Below are positions 1-47,455 of a stretch of DNA of 47,455 nucleotides, piece after piece. Position numbers and translations under genes: made by a program. Each line of letters opens with the position of its first letter. The first letter of the stretch is position 1. The notes beneath the pieces were generated by a model that did not search any database, was not told the DNA's origin, and saw nothing but the letters and a program-made list of their open reading frames with translations. Source of the stretch: an uncultured Acidobacteriota bacterium (GTDB taxonomy: Bacteria; Acidobacteriota; UBA6911; CAINFC01); the NCBI GenBank assembly GCA_903847975.1, contig CAINFC010000168.1, positions 1-47,455 on the forward strand, in the 5' to 3' direction.

Positions 1-132
1 CACAAACGAAATCTGTTCAGAGTACAAGCTTTAGCTTGCGTGCCACAAGCGGAATCCCGCTCGCAGCGCGCAGCCTGAAGGCTGTACTCAAAACGGTTTT
101 GGTTTGTAAGTTTGTTGTCGGGTGTTTCTCTG
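1..132 (+). repeat. Cloverleaf-type palindromic repeat, copy 1
   Basis: This 132 bp is repeated without a mismatch at 170-301. It contains three hairpins in a row, each with a 5-bp stem and 4-nt loop: CAAGC/GCTTG, AGCGG/CCGCT and CAGCC/GGCTG. They are enclosed by a long imperfect stem ending in GAGTAC/GTACTC. The element starts at the first base of the window, so its left border is not visible. Related copies lie at 8348-8470 (inverted), 47133 onward and 47329 onward. No transposase is adjacent. Confidence 0.9.
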
Positions 133-169
133 GCCCGGCATAAAGCCTAGACTCGACCCGTAACAATCT

Positions 170-301
170 CACAAACGAAATCTGTTCAGAGTACAAGCTT
201 TAGCTTGCGTGCCACAAGCGGAATCCCGCTCGCAGCGCGCAGCCTGAAGGCTGTACTCAAAACGGTTTTGGTTTGTAAGTTTGTTGTCGGGTGTTTCTCT
301 G
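170..301 (+). repeat. Cloverleaf-type palindromic repeat, copy 2
   Basis: This is a perfect direct copy of 1-132 after a 37-bp spacer. It has the same three hairpins (loops TTTA, AATC and TGAA) and the same outer stem. Right after it, at 301-319, comes CTTTTTGCGAAGCCATC, whose reverse complement appears at 18345-18361. That suggests a larger element with terminal inverted repeats. Bases 302-337 hold nothing else recognisable before the stop codon of the neighbouring gene. Confidence 0.9.
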
Positions 302-337
302 CCTTTTTGCGAAGCCATCGATGAAGGTTGGCCCGGC

Positions 338-2599
338 CTACGGGTTCTGCTTTTGACTGCGGCCTCCGTCCGGCCTTGACGGAGCGGACATGGCCGGCGC
401 CGACTGCTGTGGAGCGGCGGACGGCCGCGGAGACACCCAGACATCCCGACCGCGTCCTGTTTCCGGCATCGAGCCGCTCGACCGGGGGCTTATGCTCGGG
501 CTTCTCTCCGTGTAAACTCTTCCCGTTCCCTGGCTCGACCGCTCCATGAACCGGGGCGACTCCGACTGGGTCGACGGGCTTCTGGTTTCCACCGAGGGAC
601 GCTCGAAGGTCCGGCGGGAAGGGGTTTCCGAGGATCCCGTCGAAGGATTCGGACTGGAATAGGCTGGATTCGATCCCGGGAACTGCCGCCGGGAAGGCGC
701 GCTTTCCTGCGTGGCACCGCCACTCCGGACTTCCGGAGCGGGAGTCACGGTACTGCTTTCCCGGCCGGTCCGCATGGATTCGGTCCCCACGCTGCCGCCG
801 CCCGACGGCTCGGAGAAGGTCCTCCGGCGCGGCTCGTAAACTCTTGCCGGACTGGAGCCTTCCCCCTGGTCCGGATTGCGGACCGCCGGAGCCACATCTT
901 TTTCCTCCAACCTGTCGTTCCGGTAGAAAGGCCTTTCTCTGCCGGAAGTATCCGAAGCTCCACGGCGCAGCGAAGTGAGCGGAACCCGGTCCGAATTCGT
1001 GTTTCCGGAAACGGAGGCGCCTCGCTCGGTCTCGGGGCGATAAACCGAAGGCGCTTCATAGGCTGAACGGGACCCGAGCCCGGGCATCTGACGCCGCCCG
1101 GAGGAATCGACCGGCAGCTCGACAAGTCGCGAGCCGCGGGATTCCGACCCTGCGGCCGCTTCCGAACGACCGACAGAGCGCGCCCGGTCCGGCGAAACGG
1201 ATCCGCCGGCTCCCTCGGCCACCGGGCGGATCGTCGGGCGTATTTCCGTCTTGTTGGGCACCATGGCCTGCAGAGAGCCCTCGTGCCGCAGATCGGCCAG
1301 GTGCAGACCCCGGGCGGTGATCTCCGGATGCGGGCTGCGGCTCAGCGAGTTGGGCTGCAGGTCGAGGTCCCGCAGGCTGCCGACCGGGGAGCGCAGCTGG
1401 GCGATTTCCCTTTCCGGGATCTGCCGGAATTCGAAAGGCTTTCCATTGACCAGGTTATCCCGATCCACGCCCAACAGAGAACCGCGGACCGAAAGGTTCT
1501 CCGGGGGCAGGTCTCTCCCGGGGCGGTAATGCCGGTACTCGTTCTGAATGTATGTGTTATGGATGGTCACATGGGTATTGTAGAAAAAGTTGTCGTGGTG
1601 GTAGTAGTCGCGCGGACCCAGAGGCAGCCAGTGAACCCGGCCCTGGTGGTGGTAAAAGTGAACCCGGCCGGGAGACCAGAAATTGAATCCCATATGGTGG
1701 CCCGGGAGCCAGCACCAGCGATGCACCGGATGGTAATGCCAGCTGCCGTAATGGTAGGGCAGCCAACCCCAGGGCTCGTAGGAAACCCAGGTCCAGCCCC
1801 AGTAGGGCCGGGAGATCCAGCGTCCGTGCCGGTAAGGGGACCAGTTGTAGGAGATGCCGATCGGGGACCACCCCCACCCGTAGCTTCCGCCGATGTTGAC
1901 CCACACTCCGAAGCTGTTCAGGGGCTGCACGCCGATGTACACACCCGAAGCCAGATAGCGGTCGCTGGAGTCGGCAAAAACCAGCGCATCGCGCCGGTCG
2001 TTCCAGGAATCCCAGGCGTCTTCCTGGTCCGCCTGCCGGTAGCCGGCTTCGCGAACCGTGTCGACCGGGATGTAAACCGCCTGCTTTCTGCCTACTTTGA
2101 TCGTTTCCGCTCCCCGGAAGATTTCGGCTTTCCCCTTGCGGACGGCCACATCCAGCCCGCCGTCCTTCAGGACCTCCAGCCGATACAGGCCGTCGTCGGC
2201 AAAGCGCACCATTCCCACAGGAGACTGCAGCTGAAAGTCGACCCTGCCGGAGTAGCGGAGGGTCGCCAGACCGAGGGGCATTTCGACCCGCACCAGGTCC
2301 TTTTCCAGCCGCAGGATACGGATTTCCGTATCCTCCGCCAGGCGCAGATAGCTGCCGTCGTCGAATTCGATTTCCACCCGGGAATTGAGGGGCGCATAGA
2401 CGCGGTCGGTTTCCTGCAGCGGGGTGTTCACCGATCCGGCGGCCCAGTCGGTATCCGCTTCGTTTCGAAAGACGACGTTGCCCTCCAGATAGCTGATGCG
2501 CACATAGCGCCGGTCGTAATGTCTGCCCGCCATCAGCGTGGCGGACAGAAGAACCAGGGCAACCAGGAAAAACCAGCTGTTTTTTTGAATGCGGCTCAT
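338..2599 (-). CDS. Secreted FecR-domain / DUF6600-like His-Trp-Tyr-rich protein
   Basis: This 753-residue exported protein has an N-terminal hydrophobic segment (about residues 8-25). A FecR-like beta domain follows (about 32-190), with the pattern 'YLEGNVVFR', 'LQETDRVYAPLNSRVEIEFDDGSYLRL'-type strands. Residues about 215-370 are extremely rich in Trp, Tyr, His and Gly, as in DUF6600 proteins of Acidobacteriota. The C-terminal half (about 430-753) is low-complexity Ser/Arg/Pro/Glu and probably disordered. A GGAGGG ribosome site lies 5 nt before the ATG. Its role is unknown; FecR domains elsewhere sense signals in the periplasm, but no ECF sigma factor is nearby, so a structural or envelope role is equally possible. 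The family call is from memory of such sequences. Confidence 0.75.
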   Translation of the reverse strand: MSRIQKNSWFFLVALVLLSATLMAGRHYDRRYVRISYLEGNVVFRNEADTDWAAGSVNTPLQETDRVYAPLNSRVEIEFDDGSYLRLAEDTEIRILRLEKDLVRVEMPLGLATLRYSGRVDFQLQSPVGMVRFADDGLYRLEVLKDGGLDVAVRKGKAEIFRGAETIKVGRKQAVYIPVDTVREAGYRQADQEDAWDSWNDRRDALVFADSSDRYLASGVYIGVQPLNSFGVWVNIGGSYGWGWSPIGISYNWSPYRHGRWISRPYWGWTWVSYEPWGWLPYHYGSWHYHPVHRWCWLPGHHMGFNFWSPGRVHFYHHQGRVHWLPLGPRDYYHHDNFFYNTHVTIHNTYIQNEYRHYRPGRDLPPENLSVRGSLLGVDRDNLVNGKPFEFRQIPEREIAQLRSPVGSLRDLDLQPNSLSRSPHPEITARGLHLADLRHEGSLQAMVPNKTEIRPTIRPVAEGAGGSVSPDRARSVGRSEAAAGSESRGSRLVELPVDSSGRRQMPGLGSRSAYEAPSVYRPETERGASVSGNTNSDRVPLTSLRRGASDTSGRERPFYRNDRLEEKDVAPAVRNPDQGEGSSPARVYEPRRRTFSEPSGGGSVGTESMRTGRESSTVTPAPEVRSGGATQESAPSRRQFPGSNPAYSSPNPSTGSSETPSRRTFERPSVETRSPSTQSESPRFMERSSQGTGRVYTERSPSISPRSSGSMPETGRGRDVWVSPRPSAAPQQSAPAMSAPSRPDGGRSQKQNP

Positions 2600-2692
2600 A
2601 ACGCCCTCCTTGCTATCCTCTATCGGTTTTCAGGCTCTACATAGAAAATAGACAGGCGAAGGTTATAAAAGGTTTAAGAGTTCGTAAAAAAA

Positions 2693-3562
2693 TCAGGAGT
2701 CCTTGCCCAGATCGCGATGGGTCAGGTCCACGTGGAACCCCTTTTTGCGCAAAAGCTCGGCCACCTTGTTGGCCACGGCTACGGAGCGGTGGCGGCCGCC
2801 GGTGCAACCTATGGAAATGGTCAGGTAGCTTTTCCCTTCCTTCAAGAACCGGGGGTGAAGGTAGGCGATGAAGTCGCGGATGCGGCGCGTAATTCCTTCC
2901 GTGTCCGGATACTGCTCCAGAAAGCGGACCACCGCCCGGTCATTTCCCGATTTCCTGCGCAGATTCTTGACGAAAAAGGGATTGGGCAGAAAGCGGACAT
3001 CGAAAACCAGGTCGGAGTTCATCGGAATTCCATACTTGAAGCCGAAACTGACGATGGAAGTGATCATGCCGCCGTCGGTGTCCGCATCGCGAAAGTGGTC
3101 CGCCACGAAGCGCCGCGCGGTGTGGGCCGTAAAGTCCGAGGTGTCGATCACCTGGTCGGCCAGGGCCTTCAGGCGGCTGAGCTGCTGGCGTTCCTTGCGG
3201 ATCCCGTCGAGGATGGACTTTTCCCGGGCCAGGGGGTGCGGACGGCGGGTTTCGCTGAACCGCTTGACCAGGGTGGCATCGGAAGCCTCCAGGAAAATGA
3301 GGCGGACGGGAAAAGGCTGGGCCCGCAGCTTTTCGAAAATAGTATCGAATTCCCGAAGCAGCGACCCCAGACGGATGTCCACCACGACGGCCATGCGGTT
3401 GAAAGAGTTCCCCTTGGAGGCGGCAATGGCCAACAGCTCGGGAATGATCTGTATCGGCAGGTTGTCCACGCAGTAATAGCCCATATCCTCGAAGGATTTG
3501 AGCAGGGTGTGTTTCCCTGAGCCGCTCATTCCGGTTATGATGGTAAGATTTTTCAGGTTCAT
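2693..3562 (-). CDS. rapZ: RapZ-type nucleotide-binding protein (RNase adapter family)
   Basis: The product is a 289-residue P-loop protein of the RapZ/YvcJ family. In E. coli RapZ directs RNase E to the sRNA GlmZ and senses glucosamine-6-phosphate; elsewhere the role is less clear. The N-terminal P-loop reads GMSGSGKHT, followed by the family signature MGYYCVDNLP. The C-terminal domain has FGFKYGIP, VFDVRFLPNP and IGCTGGRHRSV. The start is set at the ATG immediately before MNLKNLTII, which gives the usual family length; no strong ribosome site is seen. Oddly, the Ser/Thr of the Walker A GK[ST] is replaced by His18, with Thr one residue later. The gene is divergent from the hydrolase gene starting 66 bp away. 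Confidence 0.93.
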   Translation of the reverse strand: MNLKNLTIITGMSGSGKHTLLKSFEDMGYYCVDNLPIQIIPELLAIAASKGNSFNRMAVVVDIRLGSLLREFDTIFEKLRAQPFPVRLIFLEASDATLVKRFSETRRPHPLAREKSILDGIRKERQQLSRLKALADQVIDTSDFTAHTARRFVADHFRDADTDGGMITSIVSFGFKYGIPMNSDLVFDVRFLPNPFFVKNLRRKSGNDRAVVRFLEQYPDTEGITRRIRDFIAYLHPRFLKEGKSYLTISIGCTGGRHRSVAVANKVAELLRKKGFHVDLTHRDLGKDS

Positions 3563-6154: not shown

Positions 6155-8149
6155 ATGAGAAAATTGAGTTATACATTAGGGGCCAGTCTTATCTTGACTT
6201 GCCTTCTTTCGTCCCTGTCTCTTGCCGCGGATGTACCGAAAGCGCTGCATGGAGTCAAGGCGGCCAATCTATCCGAGGCGGCGCAGGACTTCATCCGCCC
6301 GGGTTTGAAATTGAAAATTGAAAGCTTCACCGTTCCGGCCGACACCCTGAAACCTGTTGTGGTTTTCTCGGTTACGGACACCGCCGGACAGCCTGTGGAT
6401 AGAGCCGGCGTCTTCACGCCCGGCACGGTTACTTCGTCCTGGGTGTTCGCCCGCATCAACGCGGACCAGACCCAGTACACGTCCTACACCACCCGGACCC
6501 AGACCAGCCCGATTACCGGCAAAAGTGCGGTTCAGGCCTCCGCCGATTCCGGCGGCACCTATGTGGAGCTGAAGCTCGGCACCTACCAGTACACCTTCGG
6601 GACCAAGCTTCCGGCCAACTATCCCAAGAATGTCACCCACACGCTGGGCGTCTATTCCACCCGCAACCTGACCGCCTGGGGCTACACGAATTATGTAGTC
6701 AACGAGTTTTATCACTATGTGCCCGACGGCAGCCCGGTTAAAAAAATGCGCGACGTCGTCGCCACCGCGGCCTGCAACCAGTGCCACAATCCGATTTCGG
6801 CCCACGGCGGCTCCCGGCGGGAAATGCTGCTCTGCAACATGTGCCATTATCCCGGGGTCATCGACCCGGATACCGGCGAAACGGTGGACATGAAGGTCAT
6901 GACCCACAAGATTCACCGCGGCAGCTCCCTGCCCAGCGTCATCGGCGGCAAAAAGTATATTATTTACGGCAACGCGATGTCCCTTCACGACTACTCGGAA
7001 GTCGGCTTCCCGCAGGATATCCGCAACTGCAACGTATGCCACCAGAAAGCCGTGCAGGCCGAAAACTGGGCCAGCGCTCCTACGCGGGATGCCTGCGCCA
7101 GCTGCCATGACAACATCAACTGGGAGACCGGGGCCAACCACGCCGTCGGTCCGCAGGTTTCCGACGAATACTGCTCTGCCTGCCACCCGGTCGGCGGCGC
7201 CAAGGAATTCGACGTTTCCGTCAAGGGCGCCCACGTCAATCCGATGAAATCCGCGCAGCTCCAAAAGCCGAAGTTCGAGATACTGAGCATCGACAACGCC
7301 GCGCCGGGGAAAAACCCCACCGTTACCTTCCGCATCAGGAATAAGAACGGGAAACTGGTTCCCATCGAATCCATGGCCCGGCTCGGCCTTTCGATTACCG
7401 GACCGACCACCGATTATGCGATTCGCCGCTCGGAAACCTTGAACGCCACCAATTGCATTCCCGACAGCTATACCGGAACCATTTCCTACCGTTTCGCCAC
7501 TCCCTTGCCGGCAACCTGGGCCGGGACGTTCAACTTCGCCATGGAAGGGGCCATGAGCACCGTCCTGAATCCGGGCGGGCCCAAGCAGCAGACCGTCAAT
7601 GACCCGGCGGACGTGGTTTCCAAGTACGTGGCGGTCACCGGCGACAAGATCGTTCCCCGCCGGCAGATCGTTTCGGATGCCAAGTGCGATGCCTGCCACG
7701 ACAAGCTTCGCTTCCACGGCTCGAGCCGGCGCAACGGCGGCAGCTACTGCTCCACCTGCCACGCTCCCGGCTTTGTCAGCGGGAATGCATCCTTGAACAT
7801 GTCCTATATGACGCACAAGATCCATGCCGGAAAAGACCTCAGCCGCGGCTATAAGATCGGCAACGCCGACTTCAGCCACATCGGTTTCCCCGGAGATCTG
7901 CGCGATTGCCAGCAGTGCCATCTCCCGGGGACCTATACGCCTCCTCTGCCGGATGGAATTGCTTCGACGATTACCAAGGATGACTTCTTCACCCCGACCC
8001 CGCCGGTATCCACAGGCTGCCTGAGCTGCCATGACACCAAGGAAGCCGCGGCACACGCGGCGCTGAATATCGCCTCCTTCGGCGAAGCCTGCGCCACCTG
8101 CCACGGAACCGGTACGGAATATGATGTGGCCGTAGCTCACGCCCGCTAG
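6155..8149 (+). CDS. OmcA/MtrC-family decaheme c-type cytochrome
   Basis: The product has 664 residues with a Sec signal peptide (about 1-24, cleavage near SLA/ADV). There are exactly ten CXXCH haem sites in two groups of five, about residues 207-345 and 510-655. Both groups contain the same pattern of CxxCH, then HG(G)S, then CxxCH, then MTHKIH. This pentahaem duplication with flanking beta domains is the OmcA/MtrC architecture, whose members move electrons to extracellular minerals or other acceptors. A GGAGG ribosome site lies 5 nt upstream. No clear lipobox is seen, unlike surface lipoprotein MtrC/OmcA. No outer-membrane porin or MtrA-type cytochrome is in the window. The gene ends in a strong terminator and looks monocistronic. 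Confidence 0.95.
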   Translation: MRKLSYTLGASLILTCLLSSLSLAADVPKALHGVKAANLSEAAQDFIRPGLKLKIESFTVPADTLKPVVVFSVTDTAGQPVDRAGVFTPGTVTSSWVFARINADQTQYTSYTTRTQTSPITGKSAVQASADSGGTYVELKLGTYQYTFGTKLPANYPKNVTHTLGVYSTRNLTAWGYTNYVVNEFYHYVPDGSPVKKMRDVVATAACNQCHNPISAHGGSRREMLLCNMCHYPGVIDPDTGETVDMKVMTHKIHRGSSLPSVIGGKKYIIYGNAMSLHDYSEVGFPQDIRNCNVCHQKAVQAENWASAPTRDACASCHDNINWETGANHAVGPQVSDEYCSACHPVGGAKEFDVSVKGAHVNPMKSAQLQKPKFEILSIDNAAPGKNPTVTFRIRNKNGKLVPIESMARLGLSITGPTTDYAIRRSETLNATNCIPDSYTGTISYRFATPLPATWAGTFNFAMEGAMSTVLNPGGPKQQTVNDPADVVSKYVAVTGDKIVPRRQIVSDAKCDACHDKLRFHGSSRRNGGSYCSTCHAPGFVSGNASLNMSYMTHKIHAGKDLSRGYKIGNADFSHIGFPGDLRDCQQCHLPGTYTPPLPDGIASTITKDDFFTPTPPVSTGCLSCHDTKEAAAHAALNIASFGEACATCHGTGTEYDVAVAHAR

Positions 8150-8216: not shown

Positions 8217-8347
8217 GCAGGAACGGCCTCCCGCCAAAACCCAGGCAGTACGCGACCATTTCGTGCCAAAGGCCAGGTCATGTACCGTATCGGGTTCTTT
8301 AATGTCTTGAGCGATTCCGTCAGGAAGGACAAAGGTGCAAACAGTCC

Positions 8348-8470
8348 GAGAAACACCCGAAAAAAAACTTACAAACGAATGCCGTTTTGAGTACAGCCTT
8401 TAGGCTGCTCATCGCAAGAGGGATTCCGCTTGTGGCACACAAGCTTATGCTTGAACTCCAAACAGATTAT
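8348..8470 (-). repeat. Cloverleaf-type palindromic repeat, inverted copy
   Basis: Read on the minus strand this is a diverged copy of the repeat at 1-132. The hairpins are CAAGC-ATAA-GCTTG, a central AGCGG-AATC-CCTCT with one mismatch, and CAGCC-TAAA-GGCTG. The outer stem and the flanking CGGGTGTTTCTC are kept. Compared with copies 1 and 2, the first and third loops change but their stems do not. The surrounding 8217-8543 holds no gene; 8319-8347 resembles the spacer seen next to the other copies. Confidence 0.85.
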
Positions 8471-18065: not shown

Positions 18066-18132
18066 TGTTTTTTTGCACCGTCATCCTTCCTGGCAGCCCG
18101 GCAAAAAGTCCGGAACCCCGAAAGGGGTTCCG
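18066..18132 (+). repeat. CTTTTT...AAAAAG spacer module plus GAAA-loop hairpin
   Basis: TTTTTTTGCACC (from 18067) and GGCAAAAAGTC (to 18110) bound an imperfect inverted module of about 44 bp, resembling 18320-18363 and 47097-47140. Immediately after, CGGAACCCC (18111-18119) and GGGGTTCCG (18124-18132) form a perfect 9-bp stem with a GAAA loop. Confidence 0.65.
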
Positions 18133-18140
18133 GGGATCAC

Positions 18141-18288
18141 AGCCCGGGGTGAAGCTCCGGGAAGCGATGTTGTATTGAGTGTCGAGCCCTGTAAGGGCGT
18201 CCTAAAACGAACGGGAAATTGGATTTAGGGCGCCCCTACAGGGCTCTGATTTCCGAATGCCATCATTCCCGGGGCTTCACCCCGGGCT
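18141..18288. repeat. Nested double inverted repeat (148 bp)
   Basis: Outer arms at 18141-18169 and 18261-18288 are near-perfect reverse complements, and each is itself palindromic (CCCGGGG..CTCCGGG). Inner arms at 18184-18206 and 18224-18246 match in 21 of 23 positions and enclose a 17-nt loop. The whole could extrude as a long cruciform or form a stable RNA. It carries no open frame of note. Confidence 0.85.
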
Positions 18289-18319
18289 GAGGATATGGGA
18301 GGCTTTCCGCCTCCTTCCA

Positions 18320-18600
18320 GGCTTTTTACCGCGCTGTCCTTCCTGATGGCTTCGCAAAAAGTCGCATTGGTTCCCGGCAATTCTCACAAGTCGATCCGGA
18401 TCCGATTCGCAATAAAATCCGTATGGAGTTCCACCTTTTGGTGGCGCGGTGCGAGGAGTTATGTTCTGCTGTTCCTTACGGGACTCTGGCGCGGAATAAG
18501 GGGCCTGTGCCGGATGGCGCAAGGCCTTCCAGGGCCACGGGGGACCCCCACGGTGCGATATCCGCTTTTTCGCCCCGTGGGGCACACCTCCAAGTCCCGA
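18320..18600. repeat. Degenerate repeat-derived region with hairpins
   Basis: GATGGCTTCGCAAAAAGTC at 18345-18363 is the reverse complement of the sequence after cloverleaf copy 2. Downstream, AAATCCGTATGGAGTT matches the left outer arm of the cloverleaf family (AAATCCGTTTGGAGTT). It is followed by CCACC-TTTT-GGTGG (18431-18444) where the other copies have CAAGC-TTTA-GCTTG. Another 13-bp stem with one mismatch is at 18546-18558/18570-18582. The right half of a cloverleaf is not clear. No gene is seen in 18289-18632. Confidence 0.6.
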
Positions 18601-41846: not shown

Positions 41847-42061
41847 TGCGGGGCCATCCTGCGGGATGGCCCCGCAAAAAGACCCTCTCCCCGTCCGAAA
41901 TATCCGGAGCACCTCATTCTTCCTTCCTGATCTTCCCTTCTTCCTGTGAAGTGATTGGACTTACAGGAAGAAAAAGGAAGAGCGGGAAGAAAAGCGGAAG
42001 GACCTGTCGTCCGCAGACGGGGACTTTTTACCGGTTTGCCCTGCGGGATGGCCCCGCGGCT
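41847..42061. repeat. Palindromic intergenic element with repeated GGATGGCCCCGC arms
   Basis: A perfect 13-bp stem (41847-41859 with 41864-41876, loop TGCG) follows the acyl-CoA dehydrogenase stop. The 17-bp sequence 41859-41875 recurs at 42041-42057. Between them lie AAAAAG (41876-41881) and CTTTTTA (42024-42030) in inverted orientation, plus a TCTTCCTGT/ACAGGAAGA hairpin. The borders resemble the spacer modules beside the cloverleaf repeats. The first hairpin may also end the dehydrogenase transcript, though no T-run follows. Confidence 0.6.
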
Positions 42062-47052: not shown

Positions 47053-47132
47053 CATCAATCCCTGGCAAACCGGGGCAGCCCTGAATGGTTTTCCGCCACT
47101 TTTTGCACCTTCATCCGAATTGTAAAACTGGC

Positions 47133-47259
47133 AAAAAGTCGTGATTCGATCCATAACAATCTCTCAAACGAAATCCGTTTGGAGTTCAAGCTTTAGCTTG
47201 CTTGCCACGAGCGGAAACCTGCTTGAAGCACGCAGCCTAAAGGCTGTACTCAAAACGGC
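47133..47259 (+). repeat. Cloverleaf-type palindromic repeat, copy 4, with its leader
   Basis: This is a perfect 127-bp match to 47329-47455. The hairpins are CAAGC-TTTA-GCTTG, AGCGG-AAAC-CTGCT (one G-T pair) and CAGCC-TAAA-GGCTG. The outer stem (TCAAACGAAA.. with ..TTTCGTTTGA) is better matched than in copies 1 and 2; its right arm runs on to 47270 in this copy. The leader is AAAAAGTCGTGATTCGATCC. Confidence 0.9.
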
Positions 47260-47328
47260 TTTCGTTTGAAAGTTTGTTTTCGGGTGTTTTTAGGCCTTTT
47301 TCCGGGCCATCATTTTTGATAATCTCGT
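47260..47328 (+). repeat. Right arm of the copy 4 outer stem and spacer module
   Basis: It begins with the remainder of the outer stem of copy 4 and the TTTTCGGGTGTTTTT tail seen after other copies. CCTTTTT near 47295 and AAAAAGTC at 47329 bound another CTTTTT...AAAAAG module like those at 18066 and 47097. Confidence 0.7.
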
Positions 47329-47455
47329 AAAAAGTCGTGATTCGATCCATAACAATCTCTCAAACGAAATCCGTTTGGAGTTCAAGCTTTAGCTTGCTTG
47401 CCACGAGCGGAAACCTGCTTGAAGCACGCAGCCTAAAGGCTGTACTCAAAACGGC
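47329..47455 (+). repeat. Cloverleaf-type palindromic repeat, copy 5, cut by the window end
   Basis: This is identical to 47133-47259 and is truncated within the right arm of the outer stem by the end of the sequence. Confidence 0.9.

Follow-up and report, generated by a model that had tools for sequence, protein, structure and literature searches.

The hairpin repeats of the window (the whole 47,455-nucleotide stretch analysed here, which is the complete contig C168 of an uncultured Acidobacteriota genome of 8.13 Mb in 326 contigs) very probably represent a REPIN, of the substrate type of the genome's own RAYT, that was captured as cargo of a MITE with terminal inverted repeats (TIRs), 6-bp target duplications, and IS1182-like ends. 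We read the REPIN as MITE cargo because the REPIN core lies in TIR units, the 6 bases on the two sides of these units match far more often than expected by chance, and the same ends bound an IS1182-like gene. The kind of element (REPIN/RAYT) is known, while the arrangement is new in its third hairpin, its AGAG/GGAG tag, and its capture by a MITE.

The five copies of the repeat described in an initial annotation of the window were all found at the positions it gave, each with three hairpins of a 5-bp stem and a 4-nt loop (Table 1). In these copies, hairpin 1 reads CAAGC-TTTA/ATAA-GCTTG, hairpin 2 AGCGG-AATC/AAAC-C(C/T)GCT, and hairpin 3 CAGCC-TGAA/TAAA-GGCTG. The G-T pair in hairpin 2 of copies 4 and 5 and the single mismatch in the inverted copy were seen as well. 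The degenerate relative with a CCACC/GGTGG stem is also real, and its span in Table 1 includes the tag. Copies 1–2 and 4–5 reach the ends of the contig, and thus the repeats lie at assembly breaks. A multihaem cytochrome related to MtrC/MtrF is encoded at 6155–8146, beside the inverted copy 3.

Table 1. Positions of the repeat copies and related elements in the window, and of the RAYT gene and the IS1182-like element on other contigs of the same genome.
Feature	Position	Strand	Details
Copy 1, REPIN core	15..95	+	REP 20-38 (hairpin 1 at 25-38), hairpin 2 at 48-61; 5' part of host element cut by contig end
Copy 1, inverted REP	71-89	+	hairpin 3 at 71-84
Copy 2, REPIN core	184..264	+	identical to copy 1; hairpins 194-207, 217-230, 240-253
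Right terminal inverted repeat of MITE holding copy 2	301..319	+	GCCTTTTTGCGAAGCCATC; next 6 bases GATGAA
Copy 3 (inverted), REPIN core	8383..8463	-	hairpins 8440-8453, 8417-8430 (one mismatch), 8394-8407
Copy 3, degenerate right end	8328-8346	-	
Element with same terminal repeats as REPIN MITE, non-REPIN cargo	18092..18338	+	CTTCCT on both sides (perfect 6-bp target duplication)
Degenerate relative	18345..18444	+	left terminal repeat GATGGCTTCGCAAAAAGTC at 18345-18363, then long 5' arm, one REP
REP of degenerate relative	18425-18444	+	GGAGTT-CCACC-TTTT-GGTGG
Element with same terminal repeats as REPIN MITE, non-REPIN cargo	41865..42040	+	CTGCGG on both sides (perfect 6-bp target duplication)
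Copy 4, one whole MITE with REPIN cargo	47122..47311	+	left end 47122-47140, right end 47293-47311
Copy 4, REPIN core	47177-47257	+	hairpins 47187-47200, 47210-47223, 47233-47246
Copy 5, second MITE with REPIN cargo	47318..47455	+	left end 47318-47336, REPIN core 47373-47453, right end lost at contig end
RAYT gene, 200 aa	G000:C213:3152-3754 (= L054)	-	NF047646 above cut-off
Broken IS1182-like insertion sequence with MITE ends	G000:C220 (L295), about 1297-3180		frames interrupted

With 150 of 3358 candidates scored, a covariance model of the core matched the genome 147 times. Since the element reads almost the same on both strands and gives quasi-symmetric matches on the reverse strand, these reduce to at least 116 places on ~80 contigs, that is, about 115 copies, and thus the family extends beyond the window contig, a point on which the initial annotation had made its reading depend. 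The core consists of GTTY-rGAGTWC, hairpin 1, a linker, hairpin 2, a linker, hairpin 3, and WACTC. Across the family, hairpin 1 is CAAGC-TTYA-GCTTG in most copies, hairpin 2 is AGCGG-AAWC-CYGCT, and hairpin 3 is CAGCC-TRAA-GGCTG. On the opposite strand, hairpin 3 reads GAGTWCAGCC-TTYA-GGCTG, with the tag and the loop of hairpin 1. The tag-hairpin pattern GAGTWCARSCTTYAGSYTG occurs at 107 sites in the genome and at none in a reversed control, and the sites are often in inverted pairs on opposite strands with their starts at a fixed spacing of 51 bp. Therefore, the "cloverleaf", for which the annotation knew no named family, is a REPIN, mainly two inverted REP units around a third hairpin. Each REP unit has the tag GAGTWC (GTTY-[GA]GAG-TN in its longer form), a 5-bp stem, and a TTYA loop. 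The canonical 5' GTAG tag is absent, and AGAG or GGAG is found instead; GTAG is the usual tag but not a universal one, and RAYT-adjacent REPs that lack GT[AG]G have been described (PMC6006769).

Hairpin 2 shares its stem with hairpin 1 but has an altered loop, and in the copy at C93:16877 hairpin 1 is tandemly duplicated beside hairpin 2. Thus, hairpin 2 is probably a third REP that has degenerated. The outer stem of about 24 bp that was said to enclose the hairpins is present in the copies with a long 5' arm and is confined to them, while the other copies have AAAAAGTCTTCTTTGTTC at the same place. A good number of copies in the genome have lost 6 bases of hairpin 1, changing CAAGCTTTAGCTTG to CAAGCTTG (e.g., C322:10632, C248:6060, C186:10290), and the sequence of this loss is consistent with slippage between two AGCTT repeats.

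Three window copies fold as single-stranded DNA better than their dinucleotide shuffles (z of −3.4, −2.5, and −3.8). The cloverleaf layout holds in part: the three hairpins are real, but in most copies checked the structure of minimum energy is a single long rod in which hairpin 1 pairs with hairpin 3. We compared 79 distinct copies with a tree-aware null, a simple Fitch-based construction of our own applied to repeats that also recombine, and found that pairing in hairpins 1 and 3 was kept at 95% (83 ± 4% in the null) with a double-change score of 2662 (301 ± 273 in the null), neither of which was reached in 400 simulations. Fully compensated stem alleles include CAGCC/GGCTG, CAGTC/GACTG, CCACC/GGTGG, and CCGCC/GGCGG, and the CAGGC/GCCTG allele of hairpin 1 is likewise fully compensated. 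Pairing in hairpin 2 was also above the null (3/400), with no covariation. The outer stem showed neither covariation nor an excess of double changes over the null (97/400); it is largely the two inverted recognition tags. Pairing and double changes of the rod were not above the null (33/400 and 108/400), and the rod was rejected as the conserved structure on covariation, despite having the lowest energy in most copies checked. The proposed selection on hairpin structure is thus borne out by the compensated changes in hairpins 1 and 3 taken as a set. Pair by pair, the covariation check did not come out: a tree-aware test of all ~4000 pairs gave none with E below 1 (about 3 at best), with the two best pairs both in hairpin 3.

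A search for a RAYT gene with the same hairpins in its flanks, which the initial annotation had suggested, found one on contig C213. The protein scored 84.5 bits against NCBIfam NF047646 (cut-off 80). PF01797 (Y1_Tnp) missed it (20.3, Pfam cut-off 23), and the gene was reached via the hairpins on C213. Its sequence match in the PDB is the TnpA_REP structure 4ER8 (E 3e-6), a RAYT bound to a REP hairpin, which is also the top fold match of its AlphaFold model (pLDDT 85, E 2.9e-9). The HxH motif and the catalytic tyrosine are intact, and H89, H91, and Y149 do not vary across 14 sequences. This is the only strong RAYT match in its genome; the only PF01797 hit there is a truncated IS200/IS605-like gene without these hairpins, which was rejected. 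A full element lies 3' of the RAYT gene and a tandem partial-plus-full element lies 5' of it. These flanking copies have no TIRs and are among the most symmetric in the genome. The neighbouring regions of C213 (1–3033 and 3918–8798) encode a Druantia DruE/DpdJ-like helicase and a protein of 1626 aa that resembles type IIG restriction-methyltransferases, with the RAYT and the REPINs between them. The RAYT and its REPINs are therefore likely to lie within a defence locus.

Related RAYTs often have hairpins of the same kind beside them. In the 396 genomes of the phylum that were searched, there are 16 close relatives (49–58% identity), and under the pattern used nine of them have GAGTNC-tagged hairpins on either side. 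No such flanking hairpin pairs were seen at the ten distant RAYTs that the search gave (about 30–37% identity). In the named collection, 345 stretches encode RAYT relatives, and the best 80 of the 345 are from Acidobacteriota, Verrucomicrobia, Planctomycetes, Calditrichota/KSB1, and others. Tagged hairpins of this design, with different stems, often flank related RAYTs of several phyla (49–61% identical). A strict GAGT-tagged hairpin with a 5-bp stem and a 4-nt loop was found on both sides in 40 and on one side in 6 of the 72 related RAYT loci for which both flanks could be read, compared with 0 of 70 background segments. The tag consensus of 250 aligned hairpins near related RAYT genes is GTTY[GA][GT][AT]GTN, and many non-acidobacterial members read GTAG at the tag position; these hairpins were preselected for the TTYA loop, so the loop is no independent evidence. 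A three-hairpin model found REPINs among 76 related RAYT loci and four loci of G015, but the three best alignments shown skip the positions of the middle hairpin. G015, a relative of the same class (e.g., L033, L052), has 449 GAGTWC-tagged hairpins, many in inverted pairs spaced 32 bp apart. A RAYT of the matching clade was looked for in G015 and not found. The RAYT at L106 1456–2109 of G015 was rejected as the partner of these hairpins, as its flank holds a different REP, of a GC-rich CTAC/GTAG type.

In the readable dispersed copies, the mobile unit extends beyond the cloverleaf and is a MITE with TIRs and 6-bp target duplications, which the initial annotation did not describe. Dispersed copies with both ends readable are units of 155–240 bp with a mode of 158 bp (10 of the 24 units listed are 158 bp long and the others 155–238 bp), and their terminal inverted repeats read GAY...CGYAAAAAGTC. 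Near-identical copies agree almost exactly from the left GAYAATCTCGYAAAAAGTC to the right GACTTTTTRCGAGATTRTC, with identity limits at GAYAATCTCG... and ...GAGATTRTC, and differ at once outside. Target duplication could be tested in 48 of the 116 copies, the other 68 having one or both ends degenerate or off the contig. The flanking 6-mers match at 5–6 of 6 bases in 24 of these 48 copies (1.9 expected, maximum of 8 in 5000 shuffles) and at only 0–2 bases in 16. The sharp unit ends and the matching 6-mers are marks of transposition with 6-bp target duplications. In the window, the flanking 6-mers of the copy 4 MITE do not match (CGAATT and ATTTTT), and two elements with the same ends and other cargo have perfect duplications (Table 1). 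A half-end pattern allowing up to three mismatches occurs at 235 sites in the genome and at 6 in the control.

The MITE ends also bound a broken IS1182-like insertion sequence on contig C220, the only parent copy of this kind found in the genome. Its transposase pieces match DUF772, DDE_Tnp_1, and NF033551 (IS1182), the last two below their cut-offs; the IS1182 score falls short of the curated cut-off owing to the fragmented state of the gene. Elements with the same ends lie directly next to the insertion sequence. This copy is broken and has unequal 6-mers on its two sides (ATCCTT and AGAGAA), so it is tied to the MITEs by its ends only.

Not all copies have readable ends. The copies adjacent to the RAYT gene and those at C275:17643, C118:3389, and C275:106462 have no clear TIR ends, and the terminal palindromes occur also alone or with other cargo. 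These observations would fit an ordinary REPIN spread wholly by the RAYT, with the AAAAAGTC palindromes an unrelated repeat that lies alongside by chance. We consider this unlikely, since the near-identical copies stay identical exactly to the TIR ends and then stop, and the flanking 6-mers match far above chance; target duplications are not expected of a Y1 transposase (IS200/IS605). If the family were instead purely a TIR MITE, its inner palindrome would be merely REPIN-like and the RAYT flanks would hold MITE fragments, which agrees with the readable dispersed copies being whole TIR units. However, flanking hairpins of this tagged design are shared by related RAYTs from other genera and phyla, and members of the clade in other phyla were largely seen to have tagged hairpins but not these TIRs. 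The copies beside the genome's own RAYT are among the most symmetric, without TIRs. A pure MITE is therefore very improbable.

Two further readings concern the hairpins themselves. Strong predicted RNA folds (z of −4.4 and −5.5 in two of three copies) and the compensated stem changes could be taken for a structured non-coding RNA or riboregulator family kept for its RNA fold. No Rfam family matched the repeat at the gathering threshold, though, covariation is absent in hairpin 2 and the outer stem, and about 115 dispersed copies with target duplications speak against an RNA family, so we give this reading hardly any weight. DNA, which the initial annotation had named beside RNA, is borne out as the likely substrate of the hairpins. 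Sites of a site-specific recombinase would also have palindromes with two arms around a 6-base centre, as in attC- or dif-like sites, and folding as a single strand is also a property of attC sites. Here the central 6 bases vary by site and recur on either side of the unit, as a target duplication would. Reading of the ends revealed no attC core boxes, and a DDE-type transposase gene lies between ends of the same kind; recombinase sites are thus the least credible of these explanations.

Under the preferred reading, a REPIN captured by a MITE, the RAYT most likely once made the TIR-less REPINs and may still recognise them, and it would recognise and cleave the hairpins in single-stranded DNA. 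One REPIN would then have become the cargo of an IS1182-like MITE, an order of capture that we infer, and most readable dispersed copies would have spread as a MITE of 155–240 bp that left 6-bp target duplications and was presumably mobilised by a DDE transposase. For both enzymes, transposition is an inference from the sequences. A bolder version, which we hold to be improbable, is a two-enzyme element with both layers active, in which the RAYT would act on folded single-stranded DNA and the DDE transposase on double-stranded TIR DNA, with the third hairpin functional in a new RAYT substrate that has an AGAG/GGAG guide.

Like REPINs with RAYTs (Bertels and Rainey 2011, PMC3116915), the elements described here have two inverted hairpin-forming REPs, are dispersed, and are tied to a REP-flanked RAYT. 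REPINs can also form a single long hairpin (Bertels and Rainey 2011, PMC3116915). In contrast to those REPINs, there is a third conserved hairpin between the REPs, and most readable copies are inside a TIR element with target duplications. REP_Mb of Marinomonas sp. MWYL1 and its TnpA_REP (PMC8266576) have in common with our system a perfect 5-bp stem, a TTTA loop, and a tag two bases upstream, but the Marinomonas tag is GTAG, as in many of the non-acidobacterial relatives, rather than AGAG or GGAG. The Marinomonas REP is cleaved in vitro (PMC8266576), while the system described here was studied computationally. The protein resembles TnpA_REP subclass 2.8 (Quentin et al. 2018, PMC6006769) in its NHYH and W[YH] motifs, a YIHxNP-like tyrosine motif, a length of about 200 aa, and a proline-rich N-terminal stretch. 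Subclass 2.8, whose tyrosine motif is YIHYNP, has been described from cyanobacteria and with long GT[AG]G REPs (PMC6006769), whereas the REPs here are short and differ in their tag; the likeness is by protein motifs only.

In Pseudomonas putida and P. fluorescens, double inverted repeats also join REP units, there degenerate GTAG-1 units, to unrelated terminal palindromes or stem-loops and have multiplied by hundreds, but the portion of that paper at hand gives no target duplication or insertion-sequence parent (Di Nocera 2013, PMC3733652). MITEs of DDE insertion sequences are likewise short non-coding units with target duplications and terminal repeats in common with a transposase gene; unlike them, the MITEs described here carry REPIN cargo, and the only parent copy found, which is IS1182-like, is broken. 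A literature search turned up no paper that deals directly with REPINs carried within MITEs.

These results tie an acidobacterial repeat family to a specific transposase. They suggest that in one RAYT clade, spread over several phyla, the tag position, the stem length, and the TTYA loop persist while the stem sequence drifts by compensated changes, and that the GTAG guide has been replaced by AGAG/GGAG in Acidobacteriota. A RAYT clade with such varied tags lends itself to tests of how the guide determines where cleavage occurs. Capture by a TIR MITE would be a plain route by which a REPIN can multiply without its RAYT, and it is relevant to the debated spread of REPINs.
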